DNA of 64,000 bases from contig NZ_CP011125.1 of NCBI RefSeq assembly GCF_000737325.1, positions 2,542,001-2,606,000 of the forward strand, in the 5' to 3' direction. Made by a program: the position numbers and the translations under genes. The notes below the pieces were generated by a model that was given only the letters and a program-made list of their open reading frames with translations, was not told the origin of the DNA and made no database searches. Source of the DNA: Sandaracinus amylolyticus. Its GTDB lineage: Bacteria; Myxococcota_A; Polyangia; Polyangiales; Sandaracinaceae. Shown piece by piece: positions 4,861 to 47,296 of the stretch (position 1 is the first letter of the stretch; every line of letters begins with the position of its first letter).

Positions 4861-5246
4861 CTCGAAGAGGCATCCGTCCGAGCTGACGGGTGCCTCTTCG
4901 AGTCTCGAAGAGGCGTCCGTCAGAGCTGACGGGTGCACCTTCGAGTCGCATGGAGGCGCCCGCCACGGCGGACGGGTGCTCCTTCGAGGTGCGTGGATGC
5001 ATCCGTCAGCTCTGACGGGTGGATCGTGGGATCTCGAAGATGCGTCCGTCCGAGCTGACGGGTGCCTCTTCGAGCCTCGACGACGCGGTCGTCAGGTCGG
5101 ACGGGTGGATCGCGGAGACGACGAGGCGCGGTCCGCGGCGCCGACGGGTGGGTCGTCTCGACACGAGGATGTGGTCGGCGGTGCCGACGCGGGGCTCGTC
5201 GACGCGCGATCGACGGGTGCGACCGGCGGACGAGCGCGGCGTCGAC
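4861..5246. repeat. nine-unit tandem array of 43-bp palindromic repeats
   Basis: The landmark GACGGGTG, or a decayed form of it, occurs at 4885, 4928, 4971, 5014, 5057, 5100, 5143, 5186 and 5229: exactly 43 bp each time, with no indels. Each 42-bp unit is itself an inverted repeat. In unit 1 (4861-4902) the left arm CTCGAAGAGGCATCCGTC pairs with GACGGGTGCCTCTTCGAG around a 6-nt loop, with a single mismatch that would be a G-U pair in RNA. Units 1, 2 and 5 are near-identical; units 3 and 4 are diverged, and units 6-9 decay progressively toward the regulator gene at 5296. The 43-bp period is close to four helical turns. It fills the 497-bp gap between 4798 and 5296 and encodes nothing convincing. 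Confidence 0.93.
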
Positions 5247-13138: not shown

Positions 13139-13175
13139 CGACGGGAACCATCGATGCGATCGATGGTTCCCGTCG
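13139..13175. terminator. 37-bp perfect hairpin downstream of the reductase pair
   Basis: CGACGGGAACCATCGAT and ATCGATGGTTCCCGTCG form a perfect 17-bp stem around GCG. It begins 6 bp after the minus-strand reductase stop at 13181, which fits termination of that operon. The bases after it on the minus strand are A-rich, not T-rich, so it is not a textbook intrinsic terminator. A diverged partial copy of the arm lies just beyond it, at about 13120-13140. Confidence 0.7.
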
Positions 13176-13180
13176 CGTGC

Positions 13181-14041
13181 TCAGGAAACCGGGCGGATCA
13201 CGTCGATCAGGCGCCCCAGATCGTCCGCGCCGTGGCCTGCGTCGACGCACGCGCGCATCCACCCCTGCATCGTGGTGAGGAGCGTGGTGTCGGTGCCGGA
13301 CTCGCGGCTCGCCTCGATCAGGTTGTCGAGCGCGAGGACCTGCATCGCGAGGCTCGAGCCGCCCTCGAACCGGCGGGTGTCGACCGACGTCGCGATCGCC
13401 GGCACGAGGCCGTTCATCGCGTGCAGCCACGGCACGAGGAGGCCCGCGAATTCCTCGGCCGCGACGCCGCCGTGGCGCGCCATCGCGATCGCCTGGAGCG
13501 CGCCCGCGAAGAGCCCGCACATCCCGGTGAGCAGCGCGAGATCGAGCAGCGCTGCGCGCCCGGGATCGTCGCCGACGAAGCGCGGCGCGCCGAAGCGCGC
13601 GAGCACGTCGCGATGCTGCTCGAACGCGGCGGCGTCGCCCGCGTAGAGCACGAGCGCGTGCGGCGCGCCGATCATCTCGGGTGTCGCCATGATCCCGCCG
13701 TCCACGTAGCGGACGTCGTGGTCGCTCGCCCAGCGCGCCATGCGACGCGCCTGCGCGGGCGTGCCGTTCGTGAGGTTGACGAGCGTCTTGCCGCGCAGGC
13801 GCGTCGCGAGCGGGTCGAGCACCGCGCGCGTCGCGTCGTCGTTCGAGAGGCAGACGACGACGAGATCCGCGTCACGGATCGCGTCGTCGGGCGTCGCGGC
13901 CCGCGTGGCGCCGAGCGCGTCCAGCGACGGAGCCTTGCCCGGGGTGCGGTTCCACACCGCGACCGACGCGCCGCCCTCGAGCTGCACGCGCGCGAGCTCG
14001 CTGCCCATCGCGCCGAGGCCCAGCATCGCGATGCGCGTCAT
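13181..14041 (-). CDS. imine-reductase-like NAD(P)-dependent oxidoreductase
   Basis: 286 residues of the beta-hydroxyacid dehydrogenase/6PGDH-related fold, with Rossmann loop GLGAMG at residues 8-13 and the NADPH-type WNRTPGK at 30-36. Where hydroxyisobutyrate dehydrogenases keep a catalytic lysine, this protein has D167 in [11 protein letters not shown]. That Asp, with [12 protein letters not shown] and [10 protein letters not shown], is typical of the imine reductase branch, which reduces cyclic imines. I infer an imine or similar C=N or ketone substrate; the natural one is unknown. It overlaps the SDR gene upstream by 4 bp (ATGA), so the two are co-translated and probably act in one pathway controlled by the divergent LysR gene. 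Confidence 0.88.
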
Positions 14042-42397: not shown

Positions 42398-44029
42398 ATG
42401 CTCCACGGCGGTCGGATCGTCGCACGCGCGCTCAAGAACGAAGGGATCACCCACGTCTTCACGCTCTGCGGCGGGCACATCCAGAACATCTACGACGGGT
42501 GTCTCGACGAGGGCATCCGCGTGGTCGACACGCGCCACGAGCAGACCGCGGGACACGCCGCCGACGGCTACGCGCGCGTGACCGGCAAGCCGGGCGTCGC
42601 GCTCGTCACCGCGGGCCCGGGCGTGACCGACGTCGTCACCGCGGTCGCGAACGCGCAGCGCGCGGGCGTGCCGATGATCTGCATCGGCGGCGCGGGCCCG
42701 GTCGCGTACAAGCACATGGGCTCGCTGCAGGACATGGATCACGTCGAGCTCATGAAGCCGATCACGAAGTGGTCGGCGACCGTGACCGAGACGCGACGCC
42801 TCGAGGAGTTCGTCACGACCGCGTTCCGCGTGGCGACGACCGGCGTGCCCGGCCCGGTGTTCCTCGAGGTCCCGCTCGACATCCTCATGAACTTCGCGAC
42901 GGACCAGCAGATCATCCGTCCGACGCAGTACCGCAGCGAGCTCACGCCCTCACCCTCGAAGGAGGCGATCGAGGCCGCCGCCAAGCTGATCGACGGCGCA
43001 GAGCGCCCGATGGTGATCTGCGGCTCGCAGCTTCGCTGGTCGCGCGACAAGGGCGCGCTCGAGCGCTTCCTCGCGAAGCGTCCGATGCCGGCGTTCCTCA
43101 ACGGCATGGCGCGCGGCGCGCTCGCGCCCTCGCACCCGTGCTTCATGTCGCGCTCGCGTCGTGCAGCGCTCGCGGGCGCCGACGTCGTGATCGTGCTCGG
43201 CACGCCGTTCGACTTCCGCGTCGACTACGGCCGCGAGGGCACGTGGGCGAAGGACGTGAAGGTCATCCAGATCGACCTCGATCCCGAGGAGCTCGGGCGC
43301 AATCGCGCGGTCGACGTCGGCATCCCCGCGGACAGCGGCCACGCGCTCGCGGCGCTCGAGCAGGCGATCGCGAAGAAGGACGGCGGCGACTGGCTCGCGA
43401 CGATCCGCGCCGACGAAGAGGGCCGTCAGGGCAAGATGCGCGCGGAGATCGCGAGCGGCGCGACGAGCCCGCCGAACCCGCTCTGGGTCTGCAGCGAGCT
43501 CGCGAAGTACGTGCAGGACGACACGATCGTGATCGGCGACGGCGGTGACTTCGTCGCGACCGCGGCGTACACGCTGCCGATCCGCTGGCCGGGGCTCTGG
43601 ATGGATCCCGGGCCGCTCGGCACGCTCGGCGTCGGTCCGGGCTACGCGATGGCGGCGAAGCTCGCGCGCCCCGAGAGCCGCGTGATCCTGGTGTACGGCG
43701 ACGGCAGCTTCGGCCTGCACGGCCTCGAGTTCGAGGCGATGGCGCGCCAGGGCATCAAGGTCGTCGGCGTGGTCGGCAACGACGCGTGCTGGACGCAGAT
43801 CTATCGCGGTCAGCGCGACATCTTCGGCGCGGAGCGCACGCCCGCGACGAAGCTCGCGTACACGCGCTACGACCTCGTCGCGGAAGCGGTCGGCGCGAAG
43901 GGCTTCTACGCCGAGACGCCGGACCAGGTGAAGGACGCGCTCCAGAAGGCATTCGAGTGCCCCGAGCCGGCGCTGGTGAACGTGAAGATCGGCTCGTCTG
44001 ATTTCAGAAAGGGCGCGATCTCGGTCTGA
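42398..44029 (+). CDS. ThDP-dependent lyase of the ILVBL/2-hydroxyacyl-CoA lyase branch
   Basis: 543 residues in the acetolactate-synthase-like fold. The catalytic Glu lies in RHEQTAGHAADGYA, and the ThDP motif begins with GDGS (VYGDGSFGLHGLEFEA) and ends with an Asn (VVGNDACW). Overall wording (GGHIQNIYDGCLDEG, VDTRHEQTA, LQDMDHVELMKPITKW, GPVFLEVPLDIL) is closer to the ILVBL/HACL2 branch than to biosynthetic acetolactate synthase, so cleavage of 2-hydroxyacyl-CoA or a related carboligation is likely. No acetolactate synthase small subunit is adjacent. GGGAGGAC precedes the ATG at 42398. Confidence 0.9.
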   Translation: MLHGGRIVARALKNEGITHVFTLCGGHIQNIYDGCLDEGIRVVDTRHEQTAGHAADGYARVTGKPGVALVTAGPGVTDVVTAVANAQRAGVPMICIGGAGPVAYKHMGSLQDMDHVELMKPITKWSATVTETRRLEEFVTTAFRVATTGVPGPVFLEVPLDILMNFATDQQIIRPTQYRSELTPSPSKEAIEAAAKLIDGAERPMVICGSQLRWSRDKGALERFLAKRPMPAFLNGMARGALAPSHPCFMSRSRRAALAGADVVIVLGTPFDFRVDYGREGTWAKDVKVIQIDLDPEELGRNRAVDVGIPADSGHALAALEQAIAKKDGGDWLATIRADEEGRQGKMRAEIASGATSPPNPLWVCSELAKYVQDDTIVIGDGGDFVATAAYTLPIRWPGLWMDPGPLGTLGVGPGYAMAAKLARPESRVILVYGDGSFGLHGLEFEAMARQGIKVVGVVGNDACWTQIYRGQRDIFGAERTPATKLAYTRYDLVAEAVGAKGFYAETPDQVKDALQKAFECPEPALVNVKIGSSDFRKGAISV

Positions 44030-44045
44030 TTCGGTCTCGGCGTGA

Positions 44046-44227
44046 GGCGCGGGGTGGTGGCTCCGGCGCCCTGGTACTCGCGGCTGCCGGACTGTGGCGG
44101 CGCGAGCTTCGGGCATCGGAGCTTCGCTCGCTCGTGCGCTGCGCGCACAGCGCTCGCTCGCCGACGATCTCGCTTTGCCGTCTACCCGACCCGCTGCGTG
44201 AGGGCGCCGGAGCCACCACCCCGCGCC
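44046..44227. repeat. 27-bp perfect inverted repeat enclosing 128 bp
   Basis: The 27-nt arm at 44046-44072 (GGCGCGGGGTGGTGGC then TCCGGCGCCCT) is exactly reverse-complementary to 44201-44227. The 128 bp between the arms contain no open frame with good codon use but do have secondary inverted pieces such as GCGCTGCGCGC and CTCGCTCG. No flanking target duplication is obvious. It lies between the ThDP lyase stop (44029) and the DUF695 gene. A MITE-like element, a long RNA hairpin or a structured terminator are all possible. Confidence 0.92.
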
Positions 44228-44439
44228 CGAACGCGGCGTCTGCCGCCTCTTTGGGGGAGGCTGGGGAGAGCGAACGACCGAGTCGCGCTGCTCGCGCGCC
44301 TCGGACGTTCGCGGGTAGCAGCGCGCTGCGCGCGACTGCGCGCTGCGCGCGGTGATGGAGGACGCGCTCCGCGCGCGAATGTGGCGACACGCGCGACTGG
44401 TTCGCACGCTCGCTCGTTCTCGCGTGATGATGCGCTGCG
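44228..44439. other. gene-free stretch before the DUF695 gene
   Basis: About 210 bp with repeated short words (GCGCTGCGCGC, CGCGCTG, GCTCGCTCG), at 44315-44345 and 44390-44420. No ORF with the genome's third-position GC bias, and no obvious terminator or tRNA. Probably the promoter and leader of the gene at 44440. Confidence 0.4.
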
Positions 44440-45441
44440 ATGACAGACGACATAGGGCGTGCGATCGGGGCGTTCTGGGAGTGGTGGGCTGCGAACCGCT
44501 CGAACATCGAGCGCGCGATCCACGACGGGACCCTCCGCGAGTGGGTCGAGCCGCTGGGAGCGCGGGTCACGGCGATCCATCCGAAGCTCGACTGGGAGCT
44601 CGGCGCGGGCAAGCACGCCGAGCATTACGTGTGCGTGTCGGCGAAGGGCGACCCCGTGCTGCGTGTCATCGCCGAGCGATGGAAGAGCGCCGCGCCGCCT
44701 GTGGATGCGGTGTTCGAATATCACGCGGCGCGGCCTGGCGGCGGAGCGCACGGAGCCATGTTGCTGGATTTCGGACCGGTGTCTTTCGCGGTGCAGGATT
44801 TCCGGTTCGTCATCGAGGTCGACGACGCTCGGAGGCGGGTCCACGTGGACGCCTGGCATCCTTCGTTTGCGACTGCGCCGCAGAAGCTGCGGATGACCGC
44901 GACGTTCATCGCGCTCGACAGCGTCCTGGGCGAGGACGACGTCGAGCGATGGATCGGCTCCGTCGACGTGCTCCCGCGTGCCCCCGACGGCGGCATCGAT
45001 TTCTTCGCGCTGTTGCAGGTGACCGATCGCCTCCGTCCCCGCGCAGCGGAGCGTCGGTTCGCGATTCTGCGCGGCGCGCTGCCGAGCGGCGACCCGCTTT
45101 TCGTTTCGGTGGATCTCGCGCTCAAGCGCGTCGACCACCTCTTGCTCGATACGCATGCCGAGCTCGAGTCGCAGCTCCACGATCCGACTTCCGACGGACT
45201 CTCGACGAGTGTCGAAGCGCAGGCGCTGAGCCGAGCTGAGGACGCGCTCCATGCTCGGCTCGGCGACCGCGCGGTGTTCATCGCGCGCGAGACGCGTGAG
45301 GGCCGACGCGTTCTCCACTTCCACATCGCGTCGGACGGCGGGGCGCTCGCCACGATGCGCACGTGGGCGCGTGAGATCGACTGGGAGACACTCGTCCGCG
45401 CGAGCCCGGATCCATCGTGGCGCGTCCTCGAGCGTTGGTGA
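44440..45441 (+). CDS. DUF695-like protein of unknown function
   Basis: 333 residues, no signal or membrane segment. The C-terminal third (VFIARETREGRRVLHFHIA) resembles DUF695, a domain of unknown role. The middle (residues about 90-190) is a beta-rich region. The gene follows 410 bp of non-coding sequence and is slightly less GC-biased at third codon positions than its neighbours, including GATTTC, TTTCGTTTCG and ATTTC stretches. The start at 44440 was chosen because it is the first in-frame ATG before good coding signal; GTGATG lies 10 bp upstream. A hairpin follows its stop. Confidence 0.75.
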   Translation: MTDDIGRAIGAFWEWWAANRSNIERAIHDGTLREWVEPLGARVTAIHPKLDWELGAGKHAEHYVCVSAKGDPVLRVIAERWKSAAPPVDAVFEYHAARPGGGAHGAMLLDFGPVSFAVQDFRFVIEVDDARRRVHVDAWHPSFATAPQKLRMTATFIALDSVLGEDDVERWIGSVDVLPRAPDGGIDFFALLQVTDRLRPRAAERRFAILRGALPSGDPLFVSVDLALKRVDHLLLDTHAELESQLHDPTSDGLSTSVEAQALSRAEDALHARLGDRAVFIARETREGRRVLHFHIASDGGALATMRTWAREIDWETLVRASPDPSWRVLERW

Positions 45442-45463
45442 CGCGGCGCACCACGTGATCCCG

Positions 45464-46927: not shown

Positions 46928-47296
46928 GCTGAGCGCGGCGAGCCACCGAGCCGACACGAAGAGAGCGGAAGAGCAGAGAAGAGCGCGCGAGCGACGGCCA
47001 GGTCGCTCGCGCGCTCTCGCGTTTCGGAGCTCGCGAGCGTGATCTCGAGGACGATCTGGGTGCTCACCGGGGGCTTCGGTGTGCACGTTCGCGCAAGGGC
47101 GCGCTGGCGCGCGCTCGCGCTCACCGCTGTTTCGTTGGGGTCTCGTCGAGCGGGCCGCTCGTGATGGGGTTGCTCCGCGGTCGAGGCGATCTCGATCCCC
47201 GGAGATCATGCTCGGTCGTCGCGATCGCGAGACCGGTCGCGAAGCGCGTGCGTCCTCGCGATCCGTGCGCGTGCTCGTGCACACGCGCTCGATCGC
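46928..47296. other. gene-free stretch between the cytochrome and DedA genes
   Basis: About 370 bp. The main feature is the perfect 15-bp hairpin at 46981-47016. The remainder (47020-47296) contains no open frame with good codon use. Motifs such as CTCGCGAGC repeat but nothing else stands out, and no tRNA-like fold was found. Confidence 0.6.
46981..47016. terminator. 15-bp perfect hairpin after the cytochrome gene
   Basis: GAGCGCGCGAGCGAC pairs exactly with GTCGCTCGCGCGCTC around GGCCAG, 53 bp after the stop. A TTTC follows a few bases later. It probably ends transcription from the cytochrome gene and could also protect the convergent DedA transcript. Confidence 0.75.

Follow-up and report, generated by a model that had tools for sequence, protein, structure and literature searches.

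A perfect 27-bp inverted repeat in Sandaracinus amylolyticus as the putative outer stem of a dispersed, structured extragenic element, some copies of which are split by an IS110-family transposon

Why should an intergenic region of the Sandaracinus amylolyticus genome carry an inverted repeat whose arms are both long and free of mismatches? The window, by which we mean the whole 64,000-nt stretch of DNA analysed here, sits in a single contig of 10,327,335 bases (the genome of strain DSM 53668 is described as 10.33 Mb with 72% GC; PMC5010890). At 44046-44072 and 44201-44227 it contains two arms of 27 nt each, 100% complementary and 128 nt apart, just as an earlier note on this DNA had reported. 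They form the longest perfect inverted repeat in the window, the runner-up having arms of 17 bp (spacers up to 300 nt). The note had considered such arms unlikely to arise by chance, and simulations bear this out: in 100 first-order Markov windows of 64 kb the longest arms measured 13-19 bp, which rules out a chance origin. Other perfect inverted repeats of the window, with arms of 16-17 bp (13139-13175, 13742-13807, 46980-47017 and 4917-5018), fall inside the simulated range. The repeat is intergenic, as had been claimed, with a TPP-enzyme gene (42398-44029) on one side of the core and a DUF695-domain gene (44440-45441; domain match E 5.9e-8) on the other. A codon-usage gene caller trained on the codon use of the window recovered these two genes and the next genes of the window and placed no gene in the core between the arms, in line with the claim that the core holds no gene of good codon use. 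The lower third-position GC remarked on for the DUF695 gene was also reproduced (0.832, versus 0.945 for the TPP gene and 0.886 for the next gene).

The check proposed in that note, a search of the genome for further copies, was positive. With 44030-44240 as query we found about twenty further places in the same genome at 70-89% identity, and the following 211 bp downstream matched many of those same places, so the unit must be longer than the reported arms. The coordinates given earlier were therefore correct as far as they went, but incomplete, the conserved element beginning near 44028 and ending near 44335. We aligned 36 copies and derived a covariance model of 302 positions. Its matches number 36 in the own genome (G000), all scoring at least 138 bits, and 41 in a congener (G002), at 128 bits or above; these counts exclude shorter fragments and the minus-strand echoes of the palindrome. 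With 36 copies in the own genome, a single-copy reading is ruled out. The model found nothing in G001 (labelled as the same genus), G005 or G007, and a DNA query of 28 genomes, the own genome included, gave strong matches restricted to G000 and G002, with one to three short GC-rich matches in each of seven other genomes. Two exact-pattern scans of genome contigs gave no match in a collection that may omit the own genome and very near ones. Rfam had no match in the window at gathering score, with sub-threshold noise alone within 44000-44450, and we found no published description of the repeat in the titles and the starts of abstracts consulted. Subtypes, or subfamilies, exist among the copies.

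In the window, the conserved dispersed element occupies 44037-44335 of the plus strand and consists of the P1 hairpin module and a 3' module, as delimited by the 36-copy alignment and the covariance-model matches. It is preceded by a weakly conserved 5' edge (44028-44036, plus strand), defined by position frequencies over 75 loci that include nine transposon loci out of register: the consensus has G at -9 and G-C/T-T/C at -3 to -1 ahead of a conserved TCGG. This edge overlaps the end of the TPP-gene stop codon, TGA at 44027-44029. The two arms of the inverted repeat are the left and right strands of the outer stem P1 (44046-44072 and 44201-44227, plus strand), supported by their exact complementarity, fold prediction and pair counts. 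Just inside the left arm lies a variant of an IS110-family insertion site, GGTACTCGCGGCTGC (44073-44087, plus strand), with its CT core at 44077-44078; it is unoccupied in this copy, and occupied copies carry GTGCTCGCGGGCTGC instead. Single-copy folds and the alignment place an inner hairpin of the core at 44130-44151 (plus strand); other subtypes have a different sequence at that position, likewise self-complementary. The 3' module contains a covarying hairpin, P3 (44270-44312, plus strand), seen in the consensus fold, the pair counts and the single-copy fold. Behind it, copy comparison and the alignment show a variable GC-rich tail (44336-44375, plus strand), partly tandem-repeated in other copies. 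The tails of many copies (e.g. L009, L014, L022) consist of short, fast-evolving GC-rich tandem units of two kinds, GTAGCACCGCGC... and CGGGCTCTGC....

The window copy has the same orientation as the upstream TPP gene, and by the codon-usage gene caller the upstream gene was co-directional with the element in 55 of 80 loci. Nine of the remaining 25 hold a transposon, so that the neighbouring gene is the transposon's own, and fragments make up five of the 80. With transposon loci and fragments removed, the upstream gene and the element agreed in direction at 23 of 30 own-genome loci (p 0.005) and were opposed at the other 7. At the 23 sense loci, whose stop codons were TGA in 13 and TAG in 10, the conserved TCGG lay -9 to 58 nt from the stop codon, with a median of 10, and 18 of the loci fell between -9 and 14 nt. 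The downstream gene was usually far more distant from the element than the upstream gene, and over all 80 loci the gene arrangement was convergent at 23 and divergent at 10. We saw no functional theme among the upstream genes at the 10 sense-oriented own-genome loci scanned, and a consensus scan gave neither a terminator-like site with a T-run nor a sigma-70-like promoter. Close parallels exist among REPs: those within 15 nt of a stop codon are reported to lower translation (PMC12306157), and GTAG REPs frequently provide the stop codon with one of their ends (PMC3733652).

We also examined how the pairing is conserved. RNAalifold on 36 copies predicted P1 as a long outer stem enclosing the core and P3 as a hairpin within the 3' module, with 24 of 57 predicted pairs changed on both sides, and the pair kept, in at least one copy. 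For P1 we counted 27 pairs in 67 uninterrupted copies (31 from the own genome and 36 of 37 in the congener): 1657 cells were Watson-Crick, 4 G-U, 21 A-C, 77 other and 50 gapped, and sliding the 3' arm by 1-3 nt as a control reduced the Watson-Crick count to 731-783. The pair 44058/44215, for example, is T-A in 37 copies, A-T in 16 and G-C in 10. A tree calculated from the alignment minus its P1 columns requires at least 125 two-sided changes over 26 pairs, a number possibly inflated by recombination between copies. The 11 pairs of P3 gave 711 Watson-Crick, 4 G-U, 4 A-C, 10 other and 8 gapped cells. Insofar as the pairing of P1 and P3 is conserved through covariation, the suggestion of a hairpin in the earlier note was right.

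The same counts bear on the molecule in which the pairing matters. G-U wobble was tolerated no better than A-C, its counterpart on the other strand; a direct test of the two gave p 0.0009 but treats related copies as independent, and we do not rely on it. Nor do we read the excess of A-C as a sign of minus-strand RNA, because 11 of the 21 cells fall in one column. The many G-U intermediates expected of a plus-strand RNA are not seen, and their near absence speaks against plus-strand RNA as the sole thing selected. As single-stranded DNA, the element folded 6.4 standard deviations below its shuffles.

The congener allowed the age of the copies to be judged. At 18 of 35 own-genome loci the element is present at the same place in both species (17 matched by both flanks, and L102/L113 via the transposon comparison), and at two of the 18, L088/L151 and L102/L113, a transposon is present in one species only. 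Divergence was measured at 13 sites, namely the 14 transposon-free shared pairs minus L087/L116, which carry different subtypes; the copies of that pair share 78% identity, which looks as though another copy had replaced or converted one of them. Over the 13 sites, identity across the first 300 nt of the element is 91.8% and deletions take up 0.6%, compared with 85.5% identity at third codon positions and 94.2% at first and second, 73.2% identity with 18.7% deleted in other intergenic DNA, and 79.5% identity with 22.5% deleted on the tail side. Since it diverges less than third codon positions and other intergenic DNA, we read the element as being under purifying selection, in a comparison that covers retained copies alone. 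Within the element, 336 comparisons of P1 pairs between the species gave 15 that had changed on one side and 7 on both; the columns outside P1 changed more (8.8%).

We further examined 13 own-genome sites whose counterpart in the congener lacks a full element. Eight keep clear remnants (L073, L077, L080, L085, L090, L091, L096 and L100), several of them resembling hairpin deletions; three have short look-alikes alone (L095, L101 and L106) and two no remnant (L081 and L094). No convincing element-sized clean empty site or target duplication was found at these 13 counterparts, most of which carry remnants, and they gave no sign of recent transposition. Most sites therefore predate the split of the two species, with copies being lost since; and since the congener does without the full element at all 13, whether by loss or otherwise, single copies are dispensable. 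The earlier note had taken perfect arms to mean an origin that is either recent or constrained. Constraint fits, the pairs having been kept through two-sided changes, and recency does not, the sites largely predating the split. At the congener's counterpart of the window copy, the alignment breaks off near 44170 and starts again near 45445; what is missing there is one half of the element together with the DUF695 gene. The gene missing from this locus (L164; window 44170-45444) was either gained in S. amylolyticus beside the element or lost in the congener together with half of it.

Nine copies (five of the 36 in the own genome, four of the 41 in the congener) are split by a transposon of 1750 bp, both CTs counted. 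Copies of the element hold 9 of the 11 insertions of this transposon, and the nine share one exact point and one orientation, with CT at each junction (GTG-CT-transposon-CT-CGCGGGCTGC); L102/L113 provides an unoccupied counterpart of the insertion site. The five own-genome transposons are 100% identical to each other, and six in the congener are 96-97% identical to them. The DEDD transposase matches PF02371 (Transposase_20) above its cut-off (E 1.1e-11) and PF01548 at 20.6 bits, under the cut-off of 29. Once restored, the target core reads GTGCTCGCGGGCTGC in 9 of 9 occupied copies, and the 67 unoccupied ones have it in 37 cases (Fisher test: p 0.01, or p 0.04 with the sites occupied in both species, L082/L150 and L105/L149, counted once). 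Those two sites are shared in spite of 100% identity within the own genome and 3-4% divergence between the species, so that either homogenisation or repeated insertion may have occurred. The two insertions outside the element, L165 and L166 in the congener, have flanking DNA that shares GGAGTGCTCGC; their right flanks are alike (CTCGC-GGCGG-GG-CCCGCACGG-AGCGTGCGG...) and perhaps belong to another repeat family that carries this target core.

Downstream of the transposase frame lies a noncoding region of 361 nt in which GGGGTGCTCG matches the target's top strand and, immediately after it, AGCCCGCGAG matches the bottom strand. These two guide-like matches are adjacent, 10 nt long and one per target strand, and in IS1111-type seekRNAs the top-strand match likewise lies 5' of the bottom-strand match, in a noncoding region that is usually downstream (PMC11187229). 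We infer that the transposon makes a guide similar to a seekRNA or bridge RNA. That the element itself might be the transposon's own guide RNA, the covariance model having matched DNA beside a transposase gene, was rejected, the transposon being inserted inside the element.

What, then, is the inverted repeat? With moderate confidence, we take its arms to form the outer stem of a REP-like extragenic element, structured, dispersed and about 300 nt long, which spread before the two species split and has been kept for a hairpin function at gene 3' ends or in the chromosome. The spread would have used a non-autonomous mechanism, for which we found no enzyme, and the element would survive through a useful role of its hairpins. 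By analogy with E. coli REPs near stop codons, its likeliest use may be an effect on the upstream message at its end, through release of ribosomes or polymerase or by shielding from 3' exonucleases; extruded DNA hairpins could also be at work. The transposon uses the element as a gene-free landing pad. We rank action on the upstream message end first and DNA-level hairpins second, and the pairing pattern fits the DNA level at least equally. Against this explanation stand the lack of a common function among upstream genes (10 of 23 scanned), the 7 of 30 loci with an opposite upstream gene, the dispensability of single copies, the scarcity of G-U, and the lack of a T-run terminator or sigma-70-like promoter in the consensus scan.

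A tentative reading takes the element as DNA: it would be selected, or continually rewritten, as genus-specific chromosomal hairpins whose diverging 27-bp stems are kept strictly Watson-Crick, G-U wobble not being tolerated. When replication switches templates, perfect stems can be created and repaired (PMC8794818). Such template switching could yield the two-sided changes seen here, but it leaves the conservation of the unpaired parts unexplained. If the reading is true, the copies are a natural multi-copy record of arm copying by template switching combined with purifying selection, and also the address of an RNA-guided transposon.

Template switching also enters a reading that we hold unlikely, in which the element is a decayed, non-autonomous MITE-like transposon of no use to the host, its arms kept perfect because the switching copies one arm onto the other. 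Such a transposon would be dispersed and multi-copy with subfamilies, its copies would vanish as they do in the congener, several apparently by hairpin deletion, and two-sided changes would arise without G-U intermediates (PMC8794818). Neutral decay does not, however, account for an element that evolves more slowly than third codon positions and far more slowly than other intergenic DNA, unpaired parts included, or for its bias to sense orientation just behind stop codons. Of the MITE proposed in the earlier note, dispersal in many copies stands; no recent transposition and no convincing target duplication or clean empty site was seen at the 13 counterparts, the retained copies appear to be under purifying selection, and the same terminal inverted repeat in all copies, a criterion for MITEs, is not seen.

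A family of structured RNAs, derived from 3' UTRs or independent regulators and selected on the transcribed strand, would explain the conserved multi-hairpin fold, the covariation in P1 and P3 and the sense placement behind genes. We regard it as rather improbable, given 4 G-U against 21 A-C cells in P1 and equal numbers in P3, and neither an Rfam family nor a promoter-like site. More doubtful still is a reading of the elements as ordinary terminators that end transcription of the upstream genes and were copied to many places in the genome. Very stable hairpins immediately behind stop codons would suit them, as would the excess of convergent over divergent neighbours (23 and 10 of 80 loci), but there is no T-run, 300 nt with conserved unpaired parts far exceeds what a terminator needs, and at 7 of 30 own-genome loci the element does not follow the 3' end of the upstream gene. 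The invertible segment also suggested earlier, which a recombinase would flip through its arms, has perfect inverted arms in its favour and the Piv invertases within the IS110 transposase group as a precedent (PMC1525189), yet we reject it as next to impossible, since the core has one orientation in 67 of 67 copies and the arm sequence varies between copies.

With dozens of copies that have diverged but kept their structure, roughly half at sites shared by the two species, there is a direct test of how perfect stems survive, in which RNA selection, DNA selection and template switching can be separated. Together, the element and the transposon form a natural predicted target and guide pair for an IS110-family transposase.

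Among known repeat systems, the preferred reading as a REP-like element draws on REPs, BIMEs and GTAG REPs, which are likewise dispersed extragenic palindromes near stop codons, sometimes supplying the stop (PMC12306157, PMC3733652), and REPs too are targets of IS110-family transposons, insertions into them being already known (PMC1525189). The element differs in its length of about 300 nt with several hairpins and a 27-bp outer stem, as against 20-40 bp for REPs (PMC3733652), in having 36-41 copies rather than hundreds, and in a stem whose sequence varies from copy to copy with its pairing kept. Mobilisation as a REP by a RAYT was rejected, as the own genome has no match to the Y1 transposase (PF01797), a search that was positive in 5 of 14 control genomes. 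Small mobile sequences of the ERIC and IRU type, 100-300 bp intergenic palindromes in many copies (PMC2759123, PMC2229807), are also similar. In contrast to these and to MITEs, no target duplication or recent transposition of the element was seen at the sites examined, its arms are not a common terminal sequence, short edge blocks alone being shared, and it has a strong orientation and stop-codon bias. The transposon, for its part, resembles the IS110/IS1111 group in its PF02371 transposase, junction CTs, long noncoding region and adjacent matches to the two target strands (PMC11187229), with the noncoding region downstream as in IS1111 and a frame of about 430-450 codons, the length of the IS110 subgroup. 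It differs in its target, which is the present repeat family, distinct from the REP and attC targets known so far for IS110-family transposases.
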